Part shown: piece after piece, positions 14,239 through 20,749 of the stretch
Position numbering within the stretch: position 1 is the first letter of the stretch
Layout: each line of letters starts with the position of its first letter
Origin: Ruminococcus sp.
GTDB taxonomy: Bacteria > Bacillota > Clostridia > Oscillospirales > Ruminococcaceae
DNA: 33,782 nt
Reading direction: 5' to 3'
Assembly: GCA_015066925.1 (NCBI GenBank)
Contig: SVNL01000011.1
Location: 1 to 33,782, forward strand
Position numbers and translations under genes: made by a program
The notes under the pieces: model-generated
Told to the model about the DNA's origin: nothing
The model's input: the letters and a program-made list of their open reading frames with translations, nothing else
Database searches by the model: none

Positions 14239-14280
14239 ATGGAGGTTTTTGCCGAAACGAAAATCTCCATTTTTATTTTT
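14239..14280 (+). terminator. Leader terminator (possible attenuator) before atpB
   Basis: An 11-bp stem with one G-U pair (arms 14239-14249 and 14260-14270, 10-nt loop) is followed by TTTTT-A-TTTTT up to 14280. The T-run ends 25 nt before ATG 14306 and the only promoter I see is upstream, so all operon transcripts must pass this hairpin. This is the arrangement of a transcriptional attenuator; the signal that would control it is not visible. Confidence 0.65.
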
Positions 14281-14305
14281 AGCGATGAAAGAGGGTGAAT
14301 TTTCA

Positions 14306-14995
14306 ATGGAGGAGCTTTCTGAAAAGCTGTTGGAAGAACTCGAATGTCGTATAGCATTTGAAATACCGATATTCGGTGGAATACCTGTTCCTGAATCGTG
14401 TGTTGTAACGTGGATTATTATGGCAATACTCGTAATACTTTGCAGGATTTTTGTGAGAAATCTTAAAACTGTTCCGACAGGTCCACAGCTTCTTGTTGAA
14501 ATGCTTATCGGCTGGCTTAATAATTTTTTTCTGGAAATTATGGGCGAAAAAGGAAAGAAATTCCTTCCCTTTCTGGAAACGCTTATTATTTATATAGCGT
14601 TTTCAAATCTTATCGGATTGATCGGATTAAGACCGCCTACAAAGGATTTCAACGTTACTTTAGGACTATCCGTAATGAGTATAATATATATCCAGTATTG
14701 CGGAATAAAGAAAAAAGGTGTAAAGAAGTGGCTGAAAAGCTTTAAAGAGCCTGTAGCACTTCTGCTTCCGATTAATATACTCGAGCTTGTCATAAGACCG
14801 CTTTCACTTTGTATGCGACTTTTCGGTAATGTTCTTGGTGCGTTTGTAGTAATGGAGCTTGTAAAGCTTTGCGTACCTGTCGGCGTACCTGTTATACTGG
14901 GACTTTATTTCGATATTTTTGACGGACTTATTCAGGCTTATGTATTCGTTTTCCTCTCGTCACTTTTCCTTGCGGAAGCAATAGAGGACGAGTAA
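14306..14995 (+). CDS. atpB: F1Fo ATP synthase subunit a
   Basis: Membrane stator subunit that forms the proton half-channels against the c-ring. About five to six spans; the block SLCMRLFGN contains the essential Arg that faces the c-ring carboxylate. The N-terminus FEIPIFGGIPVPES is typical of clostridial subunit a. I place the start at ATG 14306 (229 aa), with GAGGG 10 nt upstream; in-frame extensions to ATG 14285 or TTG 14249 would add 7 or 19 residues, the latter running through the leader hairpin. First gene of the operon, order a-c-b-delta/alpha-gamma-beta-epsilon; atpI is not present just upstream. Confidence 0.93.
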   Translation: MEELSEKLLEELECRIAFEIPIFGGIPVPESCVVTWIIMAILVILCRIFVRNLKTVPTGPQLLVEMLIGWLNNFFLEIMGEKGKKFLPFLETLIIYIAFSNLIGLIGLRPPTKDFNVTLGLSVMSIIYIQYCGIKKKGVKKWLKSFKEPVALLLPINILELVIRPLSLCMRLFGNVLGAFVVMELVKLCVPVGVPVILGLYFDIFDGLIQAYVFVFLSSLFLAEAIEDE

Positions 14996-15054: not shown

Positions 15055-15276
15055 ATGGGAACAATCGCAATTGGTGCTGCTATCGCAGTTTTAACAGGTT
15101 TAGGTGCAGGTATCGGTATCGGTATCGCAACAGCAAAGGCAGTTGACTCTATCGCAAGACAGCCGGAGGCAAAGGGCGATATCAATAAAGCACTTCTTCT
15201 CGGATGTGCGCTTGCAGAAGCAACAGCTATCTATGGCTTTGTTATCGCACTTCTTATAATCCTTTTCCTTAAATAA
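15055..15276 (+). CDS. atpE: F1Fo ATP synthase subunit c
   Basis: A 73-aa helical hairpin that makes the rotor ring. Helix 1 is Gly-rich (GLGAGIGIGIA), the polar loop is ARQPEAKGD (residues 34-42), and helix 2 carries the ion-binding Glu55 in LAEATAIYG. Aligned by eye to the Na+-binding c subunit of Ilyobacter, the Na+-ligand positions Gln32 and Ser66 are Ile22 and Ala56 here, which points to H+ rather than Na+ coupling. Strong GGAGG site 9 nt before ATG. It is 84 nt from atpF. Confidence 0.95.
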   Translation: MGTIAIGAAIAVLTGLGAGIGIGIATAKAVDSIARQPEAKGDINKALLLGCALAEATAIYGFVIALLIILFLK

Positions 15277-15360
15277 GAGATATATAATGCCTTATCGGGA
15301 GCGTTTTTTGCTCTTAGAGAAGCTTTGGGCAATGATTATATCTGTCGGGAGGGATTTTTA

Positions 15361-15909
15361 ATGTTTAGTTTGAATACCGTTGCAGCAGTAAGTGCATCTG
15401 AAACAGTTATGGCAAGAGGTATGCTTACGCTTGACGCAACAATTATATGGACTTTTATAAATATACTGCTTCTGTTTCTGCTTTTGAAGATATTTCTGTT
15501 CAAGCCTGTCAATAAAATGATGGACGAGCGTACAAAGAAGATACAGGACGACATCGACGCCGCTAAAAAGGCAAGAGAAGAAGCTGAAGCAATGAAAATT
15601 GAATATGCCGCAACTTTGAGAAGTGCAAAGGATGAAGCACAGGAAATTGTGGCAAAGGCTATCGACAAGGCTGAGGATGAAAGAAAAGCTATCGTAACAA
15701 AAGCAGAAGACGAGGCTCATGAAATTTTCAAGAATACAACAAAAACTATCGAGGTTGAGCGTAAACGCTCTGTGCAGGAGGCTCAGACACAGATTGCTGA
15801 TCTTGCTATTGCGGCAGCATCAAAAATTCTCGGTGAAAATGTAGACGATGAAGCCAACAGAAAAATTGTTGATACCTTTCTTGAGGAAGAGGGTGCCGAC
15901 AACCGATGA
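15361..15909 (+). CDS. atpF: F1Fo ATP synthase subunit b
   Basis: Peripheral stalk subunit linking Fo to F1. A single N-terminal span ([19 protein letters not shown], ~25-45) with FKPV after it, then a long charged helix rich in Ala, Glu and Lys ([19 protein letters not shown]) that dimerises. 182 aa from ATG 15361, which has GGGAGGG 7 nt upstream; a longer reading from 15325 is not needed. It overlaps the next gene by 4 nt (ATGA). Confidence 0.92.
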
Positions 15910-17981
15910 AAGAATTTGAAAAAGAAGCTGTGAATAAGCTTTTAAAGCATGGAGTTTCCGAGGAAATAATCGACGAAACAAAAAGTATTTTTTCTGCCTG
16001 TGAAGACCTTGCTGAAACTCTCAGCAGTCCTATAGTAACAACTGAGGAAAAGCATAGAATAGTAAAACAGCTTTTTCCTAAAGAAATGCATACCTTTATC
16101 TGTACGTTGTGCGATAAAGGCTCTATAGGCAATATAAATTCTCTTCTTAATGAATACTGCTCTATTCTTATGGAGAAAAACGGAAGCATAAAGGCTGTTG
16201 TACGCTATGTGACAGAGCTTACCGATTCGCAGAAGAATAGTATGCAGCAGTTTATCAAGAGCAAATTCAATGTTGAAAATGTTGAGATAAAATACCGTAA
16301 GGACGAAAGCATTATCGGCGGATTTATACTCAACGTCGGCGACTATGAATACGATAAAAGCTTCAGAACAAGTGTAAAGGCTCTGCACCAGAATCTCAAG
16401 GACAGAGCAAATGCAAATTCAATCAAGAATGATAAAGAAAGTGAAAATGATTCACTTAGAGCAAATAATATCATATCTGTACTTAAAACAGAAATTGCCG
16501 ATTTTGAAAAGAAAACAGGCATTGCCGAAACAGGATATATCACAAGAATAGGTGACGGCATCGCTAAAGTATATGGTATGAATCGTGCAATGTACGGTGA
16601 GCTTGTTGAATTTGAAACAGGTATAAGAGGTATTGTACAAAATCTTGAAAAGGACGGCTGCGGAGTAGTTTTGCTCGGAAATGACCACGGACTTACCGAA
16701 GGCTCAATTGTTGTAAGAACAGGAAAAAGAGCAGGTATAGGTGTAAGCGACCAGCTTCTTGGAAGAGTTGTTGATGCACTTGGTGCGCCAATCGACGGAA
16801 AGAGCGATATAGTTGCTGAGGAATATTTTCCGATTGAAAATGAAGCACCGGGCGTAGTTGACAGACAGCCTGTTAACGTTCCGCTTCAGACAGGTATACT
16901 TGCGATAGACTCAATGTTTCCTATCGGAAGGGGACAGCGTGAGCTTATTATAGGCGACAGACAAACAGGAAAAACATCAATTGCCGTAGATACAATTATA
17001 AATCAGCGTGAACAGGACGTAATCTGCGTATATGTAGCAATAGGACAGAAATCGTCAACAGTTGCCAAGGTAGTAAATACACTGAAATCAAAAGGAGCTA
17101 TGAAATATACAATCATTGTTTCCGCATCTGCAAGTGAGCCTGCACCGTTCCAGTATATTGCGCCTTATTCGGGTACCGCAATTGCGGAATATTTTATGTC
17201 AAAGGGCAAAGATGTGCTTATTGTATACGATGACCTTTCAAAGCATGCCGTTGCTTACAGAGCAATGTCACTTCTTCTGCAAAGACCACCGGGACGTGAA
17301 GCGTATCCGGGCGATGTATTCTATCTGCATTCAAGACTTCTCGAGCGTTCGTGCCGTCTTGATGAGGAGCACGGCGGCGGCTCAATAACAGCCCTGCCTA
17401 TTATCGAAACTCTTGCAGGAGATGTATCTGCATATATTCCGACAAATGTAATTTCAATTACAGACGGTCAGATTTTTCTTGAAGAGGATTTATTCAACGC
17501 AGGTATGCGTCCTGCGGTAAACGTAGGGCTTTCAGTATCCCGAGTAGGCGGTGCAGCACAGACAAAGGCTATGAAGACTGTTGCGGGAAATCTGAGAATA
17601 GAGCTTGCTCAGTTCAGAGAAATGGAAGTGTTTACACAGTTCTCATCAGAGCTTGATGGAGCAACTGCTGACCTTTTAAATCACGGACATACTCTTATGG
17701 AGCTTTTAAAACAGCCGCTTTATAATCCGCTTCCACTTCACGAACAGGTTGTGCTTTTGTATGCGGCTTCACATCATATGCTTAAAGATGTTCCGCTTAA
17801 ACAGCTTAAAGACGTTAAAACTGACCTTATAAAGCATATAAGAAAATATGCGAGTGATGTTCTTAACGAAATCGACAGCAAAAAGGCTGTTGACAGTAAG
17901 CTTGGCGAGAAAATAGAAAATGCAATAAATGAATATAAGAGGCTGGTGAATACAAATGCCGAATATGAGGGAGATTCGTGA
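15906..17981 (+). CDS. atpHA: ATP synthase delta-alpha subunit ORF (fusion, or atpH and atpA joined by a 1-nt deletion)
   Basis: One open frame of 691 codons. Residues ~1-165 are a full delta (OSCP) subunit: an N-terminal helical part and a C-terminal part ending in [18 protein letters not shown]. Residues ~182-691 are a full alpha subunit: [21 protein letters not shown], Walker [25 protein letters not shown], and [15 protein letters not shown] with the Arg finger. No in-frame ATG, GTG or TTG lies in the linker. However, an ATG at 16447 is one base out of frame exactly where alpha should begin: one extra G after 16449 would give alpha as MDSLRANN... (511 aa) and end delta at TAG 16457 (183 aa), both normal sizes. 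So this is either a real fusion or a single-base deletion (mutation or assembly error). Sequence is solid for both functions. Confidence 0.9.
16447..16459 (+). other. Delta/alpha junction with possible missing G
   Basis: Bases 16447-16459 read ATGATTCACTTAG. With GG instead of the single G at 16449, the ATG would open the alpha frame (Met-Asp-Ser-Leu-Arg) and the delta frame would stop at the TAG 16457-16459, an overlapping stop/start of the kind seen elsewhere in this operon. As given, the two frames are joined. Confidence 0.7.
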
Positions 17982-18861
17982 GAGAATAAGCAGTATTGAG
18001 CAAATTCTGAAAATAACGAATGCAATGTATCTTATCTCATCATCAAAGCTGAAAAAGGTAAGAAAACAGCTTGAAGCGACGGAGCCTTATTTTCATAAGC
18101 TTCAGTCAACTCTTGATGATATTCTTTACCATACCCCAAGTACGAAGCAGAAGTATTTCGATAAGCGTCCTGATATTCCCGAGGAAGAACGAAAAAAGGG
18201 ATATGTTATCATAACGGCTGATAAAGGCTTGTGCGGAAGCTATAATCATAATGTTTTAAAGCTTGCCGAGCAGGAGGTTGCTAAAAGCCATAACTGTACT
18301 CTTTTCGTAATGGGACAGGTAGGACGTATGTATTTTTCAAGACGTATAAAAAAAGATATAAAGGCTGTTCTTGATGCAGAATTTATGTTCACACCGCAAA
18401 ATCCTACACTTTACCGTGCAAGAGAGATTGCAGAATTTCTTCTTGAAAAATTTGAAACAAAACAGCTTGATGAGGTTTATGTAATATATACCGAAATGAT
18501 AACGTCTGTTAAATTTGAAACAAAGATTATTCCCGTACTTCCTTTCAGCCGTCACCACTTTGCAATGACTGAGGAGGGAAGACTTAAAAAGCTTCCGAAA
18601 GCTTCGTTCCACCCATCTCCTAAAGTGGCAATGGACTATCTTATTCCGAATTATGTAAAGGGAATTATCTATGGAGCTATGGTCGAAGCCTTTTCATGTG
18701 AACAGCAGGCAAGAATGACAGCAATGGATTCAGCAACCGCAAGTGCGAGAGATATGATAAAAGAACTGTCACTGCTATATAACAGAGCAAGGCAAGCCGC
18801 AATAACACAGGAAATAACTGAGGTTGTAAGCGGTGCAAAGGGCTTGAATAAGGAAGAATAG
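17956..18861 (+). CDS. atpG: F1Fo ATP synthase subunit gamma
   Basis: Central rotor shaft of F1. N-terminal helix [20 protein letters not shown], with the conserved [15 protein letters not shown] in the middle (the family GLCG motif), and the C-terminal helix [20 protein letters not shown] with [10 protein letters not shown]. 301 aa is normal. ATG 17956 lies inside the 3' end of alpha (26-nt overlap), with AGAGG about 13 nt before it; ATG 17965 is possible. Ends 58 nt before atpD. Confidence 0.95.
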
Positions 18862-18898: not shown

Positions 18899-20314
<1,416 letters not shown>

Positions 20315-20332: not shown

Positions 20333-20749
20333 ATGAGTAAAACCTTTCAGCTTGATATTATTGCAAGTGACCGTGTTTTTTACAGCGGTGAATGTGAGGA
20401 ATTAGTCTTTCCTGCTCTTGACGGACTTTACGGAGTTCTTCCGCTTCATGAACCGCTCGTAACAGCGGTAAGTCCCGGCGAGCTTAAATACAAGGTTGAT
20501 GGCAAATGGTACTATGCAGCAGTATCAAACGGATTTGCAGAGATAATGCCGCAATTTGCAGTAATACTTGCCGATTACGTTGAGTTTCCCGAGGAAATAG
20601 ACATAAAGCGTGCCAAAGAAGCAAAAATGCGTGCACAGGAACGTATGAAGCAGAAGCAGAGTGTAATTGAATATTATCGTACACAGGCGGCGCTTAACAG
20701 AGCTATGAACAGACTTAAAGTTTCGGGAAAGCGTTTTAAGGATATGTAA
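20333..20749 (+). CDS. atpC: F1Fo ATP synthase subunit epsilon
   Basis: Small F1 subunit that couples gamma to the c-ring and can inhibit hydrolysis. An N-terminal beta-sandwich (FQLDIIASDRVFYSGE, YGVLPLHEPLVT, where GVLPGHAPL is usual) and a two-helix C-terminal domain (AKEAKMRAQERMKQKQ...ALNRAMNRLKVS). 138 aa is normal. GAGGGAGG about 10 nt upstream. Last gene of the operon; a terminator follows at 20800. Confidence 0.94.
   Translation: MSKTFQLDIIASDRVFYSGECEELVFPALDGLYGVLPLHEPLVTAVSPGELKYKVDGKWYYAAVSNGFAEIMPQFAVILADYVEFPEEIDIKRAKEAKMRAQERMKQKQSVIEYYRTQAALNRAMNRLKVSGKRFKDM

Follow-up and report, generated by a model that had tools for sequence, protein, structure and literature searches.

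The F1Fo ATP synthase operon in a 33,782-nt stretch of Ruminococcus sp. DNA, the whole of which we call the window, was found to encode the delta and alpha subunits in one open reading frame, with a full-length delta (OSCP) ahead of a complete alpha. These bacteria of the gut and rumen appear to make two parts of the ATP synthase from a single gene, as one fused protein. Each enzyme would then have three copies of a stalk-anchoring part of which there is normally one, and its motor might be able to hold more than one side stalk. Taken as a whole, the genomic evidence makes it likely that one delta-alpha polypeptide is made, that it is the sole source of both subunits in the genome as assembled, and that the enzyme holds three tethered deltas and at least one peripheral stalk.

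The frame opens with an ATG. Its residues 20-164 match PF00213 (OSCP/delta) over profile positions 24-172 with 96.5 bits (gathering cut-off 22.3), and residues 184-679 match TIGR00962 (atpA, F-type alpha) with 766 bits (curated cut-off 484.45), which bears out the claim of a sequence-only reading of this DNA that a complete delta and a complete alpha share one open frame. Ahead of the delta C-terminal domain, approximately 90 residues can be aligned with the N-terminal domain found in separate deltas. The operon has the order a-c-b-[delta-alpha]-gamma-beta-epsilon and the F1Fo set is complete. Delta is joined here to alpha and not to b, which has an open reading frame of its own carrying PF00430; this atpF is the sole b frame seen in the operon, and its stop overlaps the fusion start by 4 nt. 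The genome, an assembly that is 79% complete and in 116 contigs, contained a single full alpha and a single delta match. No second alpha was found in this 79% complete assembly; the only other alpha-like matches, at 29% and 27% identity, include the beta gene of the same operon. Sodium-binding c rings have a glutamine at the GxGxG helix, and this glutamine is absent from the c subunit of the window.

Table. Features of the ATP synthase operon in the window (positions on the forward strand; domain boundaries within the fusion are approximate).
Feature	Position	Strand	Evidence and remarks
a subunit (atpB)	14249..14995	+	PF00119, 159 bits, on 14303-14992; start codon provisional
c subunit (atpE)	15055..15276	+	PF00137, 67.3 bits
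b subunit (atpF)	15325..15909	+	PF00430, 90.4 bits; start codon provisional
delta-alpha fusion ORF, 691 aa, stop included	15906..17981	+	PF00213 + TIGR00962
delta N-terminal domain, ~residues 1-90	15906..16175	+	retained; boundary inferred from alignment
delta C-terminal domain, ~residues 91-168	16176..16409	+	b-binding part by homology
linker, ~15 residues	16410..16454	+	without in-frame ATG/GTG/TTG
alpha including N-terminal helix	16455..17978	+	TIGR00962 residues 184-679; PF02874, PF00006, PF00306
gamma subunit (atpG)	17956..18861	+	PF00231, 305.5 bits; overlaps fusion 3' end
beta subunit (atpD)	18914..20314	+	PF00006 + PF02874
epsilon subunit (atpC)	20333..20749	+	PF02823 + PF00401

The sequence-only reading had favored an ordinary overlapping delta-alpha pair merged by a 1-nt deletion or a frameshift, and the incomplete state of the draft (79%, in 116 contigs) speaks for an assembly or sequencing error of this kind. 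It had also correctly observed that an ATG at 16447, the expected start of alpha, lies one base off the fusion frame, and its arithmetic on the TAG at 16457 was sound. However, no ribosome-binding site precedes the ATG at 16447 (duplex energy with the anti-SD, -0.9 kcal/mol), and comparison of the junction in related Ruminococcus genomes, as had been proposed, showed a continuous frame, with linkers whose length differs among species by whole codons. This unbroken frame with other linkers rules out a 1-nt deletion in the window, and we regard the chance that a lost base created the fusion as negligible. The alternative that the same reading had allowed for, a true fusion, is instead supported by the continuous frame in the relatives.

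Within the genus, a PF00213 search detected delta in 115 of 120 genomes, and delta and alpha were in one frame in 111 of the 115. The open frame measured 577-699 aa in 109 of the 111 fused genomes; in the other two it was shortened by contig ends, and the fusion was checked in fetched DNA. Among named records, the fusion occurs in eight strains of R. flavefaciens (Y1, ATCC 19208, FD-1, MA2007, YL228, ND2009, XPD3002 and SAb67). In a search of 60 relatives the protein was found in 57, and in most of 35 same-genus genomes the match covered both delta and alpha with no stop inside it; among these 35, alpha was split over two frames in G033, and G016, G017 and G022 did not show the fusion. Two fusion contigs of FD-1 are identical across the match and probably represent one locus assembled twice, and the two fused matches of G362 may have the same origin.

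A stand-alone delta (frames of 178-187 aa) was present in 13 genus genomes. Only a separate delta was found in four of the 115 (G016, G371, G399 and G400), and a fused frame accompanied a stand-alone delta in nine (G034, G432, G410, G360, G401, G021, G397, G359 and G382); thus, the genus does not strictly depend on the fusion. The nine dual genomes suggest either two F-type ATPases per cell or mixed bins. A possible additional delta of G382, in a frame of 758 aa (E 1e-5), was discarded, as our own delta profile did not recover it on fetched DNA. Two records titled Alistipes (L107 and L131) hold a Ruminococcus-like fused operon and are probably misnamed bins.

The ratio of one delta to three alphas could still be kept if free alpha were produced as well, by internal initiation or a programmed frameshift. 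In 93 of the 102 fused genus loci the stretch from delta to alpha contains at least one in-frame start codon, counting ATG, GTG and TTG, and in most of the loci there is an in-frame ATG within the last delta helix, although without a ribosome-binding site. The remaining nine junctions, that of the window among them, have no such codon at all. In the window none was present in the 63 codons from the delta 'DKS' to the alpha 'GDGIA', in agreement with the sequence-only reading, and six of 86 distinct junction segments lacked one (L001, L111, L112, L116, L118 and L120). An internal start for free alpha should carry a ribosome-binding site. The median anti-SD duplex energy was -12.6 kcal/mol at the fusion start (102 genus loci) and -10.7 kcal/mol at the alpha starts of separate-gene loci (n = 66), whereas it was -0.3 kcal/mol at the in-frame junction start codons (n = 179) and -1.1 kcal/mol at control codons within alpha (n = 1160). 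Even the strongest junction start per locus had a median of only -1.5 kcal/mol, and in none of the 93 loci did it reach the -10.7 kcal/mol median of separate alpha starts. In other lineages, a junction start with a strong site was found in 3 of 47 truncated-fusion loci (L210, L232 and L154).

Synonymous variation at the junction was not lowered in three 12-codon windows over codons 162-197 of 80 distinct proteins (1.12, 1.18 and 1.03 of expectation). Given such freely varying synonymous sites we rejected an overlapping nucleotide signal, and the junction starts, being absent or of weak anti-SD energy, led us to reject an internal alpha start at ATG, GTG or TTG. A frameshift from the delta frame, moreover, would yield free delta and not free alpha. 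Free alpha through internal initiation is unlikely on these genomic grounds, and an enzyme that keeps one delta per three alphas by either route seems to us very improbable.

The fused delta itself has changed. Delta helices I and V bind the alpha N-terminus. In helix I the residue after the tyrosine position was small (A, G or S) in all 62 separate deltas but in none of the 102 fused genus deltas, which had L, I, V or M instead, the column being set by L034 and the loci being counted with redundancy left in. The two domains also differ in conservation: at equal alpha identity (0.74-0.80), the identity of the delta C-terminal domain was 0.61 in the fused genus versus 0.41 among separate deltas, and that of the N-terminal domain 0.36 versus 0.38, in comparisons whose pairs are not independent. 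Once each cluster was represented by a single row, the N/C ratio was 0.63 in the fused genus (bootstrap 0.60-0.65, 33 rows) and 0.91 for separate deltas (0.86-0.96, 43 rows). Thus, unlike the b-binding C-terminal domain, the N-terminal domain is not extra-conserved in the fused genus. For alphas of equal divergence, the a and b subunits were also more alike in the fused genus than in the separate-gene set (0.69 versus 0.55 for a and 0.53 versus 0.42 for b), and the C-terminal effect may therefore be partly general. In other full-length lineages the N/C ratio was 0.81, 0.83 and 0.96 (one to three pairs each), so that the shift outside the genus is weak or absent on very few pairs. The helix-I motif was retained in the genus groups g78, g33, g134, g172 and g260.

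Fusions are not confined to the window's genus. Among fetched loci, the full-length form was found in this genus, in g33, g59, g78, g134, g172, g260 and g336, and at locus L138. A truncated form of the Acidaminococcus kind, the delta C-terminal domain followed by alpha, was present in 31 further genus groups, and at these loci there was no gene for the delta N-terminal domain between b and alpha. The group g59 holds both forms. In a class sample of 391 genomes, in which stop-free frames of at least 580 aa were counted, at least 35 genomes besides the window had the delta C-terminal domain and alpha in one frame; of the frames listed, 8 were full-length (671-691 aa) and the other 27 were shorter, 26 of which were checked by domain and proved truncated. 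A phylum sample of 299 genomes yielded 13 outside the class with such frames (601-659 aa), as judged by length alone.

To place the forms, trees were built on the alpha part. The 244 loci with alpha, many of them from the same genome or close kin, comprised 129 full-length, 66 separate, 47 truncated and 2 triple forms; they were thinned to 92 rows, 43 of which were hand-chosen for a more careful tree. On the 92-row tree (quick method), the full-length fusion required 7 changes, at least 6 of them forced by well-supported branches, and the truncated fusion 8, at least 5 of them forced; the careful 43-row tree likewise gave 7 changes for the full-length form (bootstrap 6-8), gain and loss being indistinguishable in all these counts. 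The group g51, in which the genes are separate, was sister to the window's genus (100/99). Within g59, G093 has a truncated form that was nested with full-length forms (100/97). The tree by itself gives no direction, but this nesting suggests that fusion may have come first and domain loss later. L122 and L195, labeled as truncated, were rejected because they are actually cut at contig ends.

Fused and stand-alone deltas occurred together in 6 of 17 delta-probed genomes (G093, G112, G277, G461, G569 and G740). Two loci, L155 (1988-4207, +) and L156 (710-2917, -), carry a triple fusion of b', delta C-terminal domain and alpha (740 and 736 aa), in which PF00430, PF00213 and the alpha domains each score above cut-off; an additional b-like frame lies upstream, and the delta-alpha junction has no in-frame start codon. 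If left uncut, such a protein would provide three b' anchors per F1, making multi-stalk enzymes in nature more plausible. At L153 a stand-alone gene of 74 aa for the delta C-terminal domain (2402-2623, +) precedes a separate alpha, a case that, from its gene arrangement, appears to be loss of the N-terminal domain without fusion. At L238 and L247, placed inside the truncated-fusion clade, alpha has a short N-terminal extension and no delta was found at the locus; their genomes (G683 and G616) hold a full stand-alone delta elsewhere. By eye, the separate delta frame upstream of alpha at L044 (G318, g51) contains two tandem delta C-terminal domains, and the 386-aa a-subunit frames of L142 and L144 seem to have a repeated N-terminal stretch.

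The closest counterpart is an engineered one. Working with Bacillus PS3 FoF1, Ueno et al. (2025; PMC12229609) removed the part of delta that occupies the threefold axis, its N-terminal domain, and fused the remainder to alpha; the resulting deltaDeltaN-alpha enzyme reached an H+/ATP ratio of 5.8, with as many as three stalks and a subunits. Chain I of PDB 9JC1, the PS3 deltaDeltaN-alpha polypeptide in three copies, aligns with residues 93-663 of the window's fusion. In both proteins the delta C-terminal domain precedes alpha in one polypeptide, the three copies per F1 seen in PS3 being predicted here. However, the N-terminal domain was deleted there by design, whereas here the whole delta is fused, and multiple stalks were shown for PS3, whereas for the Ruminococcus fusion they are a possibility. 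The Discussion of the same article mentions natural deltaDeltaN-alpha fusions (Acidaminococcus fermentans; UniProt G4Q3K6 and A0A1I2C5T3), which share with ours a delta and an alpha fused in the operon, but their N-terminal domain is reported missing and here it is present. In the b-delta fusion of mycobacteria and Gordonia (PMC5709465; PDB 9vkp, 'b-delta') delta is likewise merged with another stator subunit, but there it is joined to b and stays single, whereas here it is joined to alpha. The available part of PMC5706428 does not treat a delta-alpha fusion. In the literature searched, which did not extend to subscription papers or preprints, delta-alpha fusions were found in the main text of PMC12229609 only, and no mention of the full-length form was found. 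The suggestion of a new F1 architecture thus holds in part: the delta-alpha joint was already known, in print since 2025 without the N-terminal domain, and the full-length form with this domain appears to be the new part.

Because F1 has three alphas, the fusion would put three delta domains on each F1 unless the protein is cut, a stoichiometry problem rightly raised in the sequence-only reading. We propose that each of the three deltas would be tied via a flexible linker to an alpha N-terminus, and that the b dimer would still be bound by the delta C-terminal domain. The covalent tie would take the place of the delta N-terminal domain as anchor, leaving that domain free to drift, or to be lost in other lineages; the divergence of this domain in the genus and its loss in kin support the view that a tether would lessen the need for the N-terminal anchor. 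The deltas would not remain tethered if the fusion were translated whole and the linker then cut, giving ordinary alpha and surplus delta, which would be lost. A protease site could resemble this linker, which is short, polar and variable, and the end product would be that of the known single-delta enzymes. However, inspection of the linkers by eye revealed no conserved cleavage motif, the engineered PS3 fusion is described as functioning uncut (PMC12229609), and the fusion is seen on several branches, with the N-terminal domain then lost or b' joined on, a pattern hard to reconcile with parts that are always separated. Cutting thus seems unlikely to us, if clearly less remote than the production of free alpha.

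With the three deltas tethered, at least one peripheral stalk would be assembled, and the main alternatives concern the number of stalks. A near-neutral gene merger may have left an intact fusion in an ordinary single-stalk enzyme, with one N-terminal domain on the threefold axis, one C-terminal domain on b2 and two deltas idle. The N-terminal domain that limits PS3 to one stalk according to PMC12229609 is still here, which favors this possibility; yet helix I is altered, the C-terminal domain is extra-constrained and the N-terminal domain is not, and several lineages have dropped the N-terminal domain entirely. We give the single-stalk enzyme slightly less than an even chance. A second or third stalk would hinge on whether the threefold axis is still occupied by the altered N-terminal domain, and we consider more than one stalk possible but the less probable outcome. 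Extra stalks, each with its own a subunit, would give a higher ion-to-ATP ratio. A natural multi-stalk enzyme of this type, with a full-length delta per alpha, an unblocked threefold axis and as many as three b2-a units per rotor, and hence a ratio raised for use at low ion-motive force, is put forward as a tentative reading of the gene structure. Were it true, the genomes with both fused and separate operons would hold two gear ratios.

To our knowledge, F-type ATP synthases are built with a single peripheral stalk and a single a subunit. According to PMC12229609, no enzyme with several a subunits had yet been identified, and a natural multi-stalk FoF1 awaits verification. The present fusion makes this question directly testable, in named strains and with the fusion as the sole source in many genomes. 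The relatives, moreover, form a series of separate genes, full-length fusions and truncated fusions, which bears on how evolution could break the stoichiometry rule fixed by delta, through fusion and later domain loss, as the g59 nesting suggests. As for the ion-motive force on which such an enzyme would run, Rnf is a possible source of a modest one, RnfC being above cut-off in 29 of 40 genus genomes, including that of the window.
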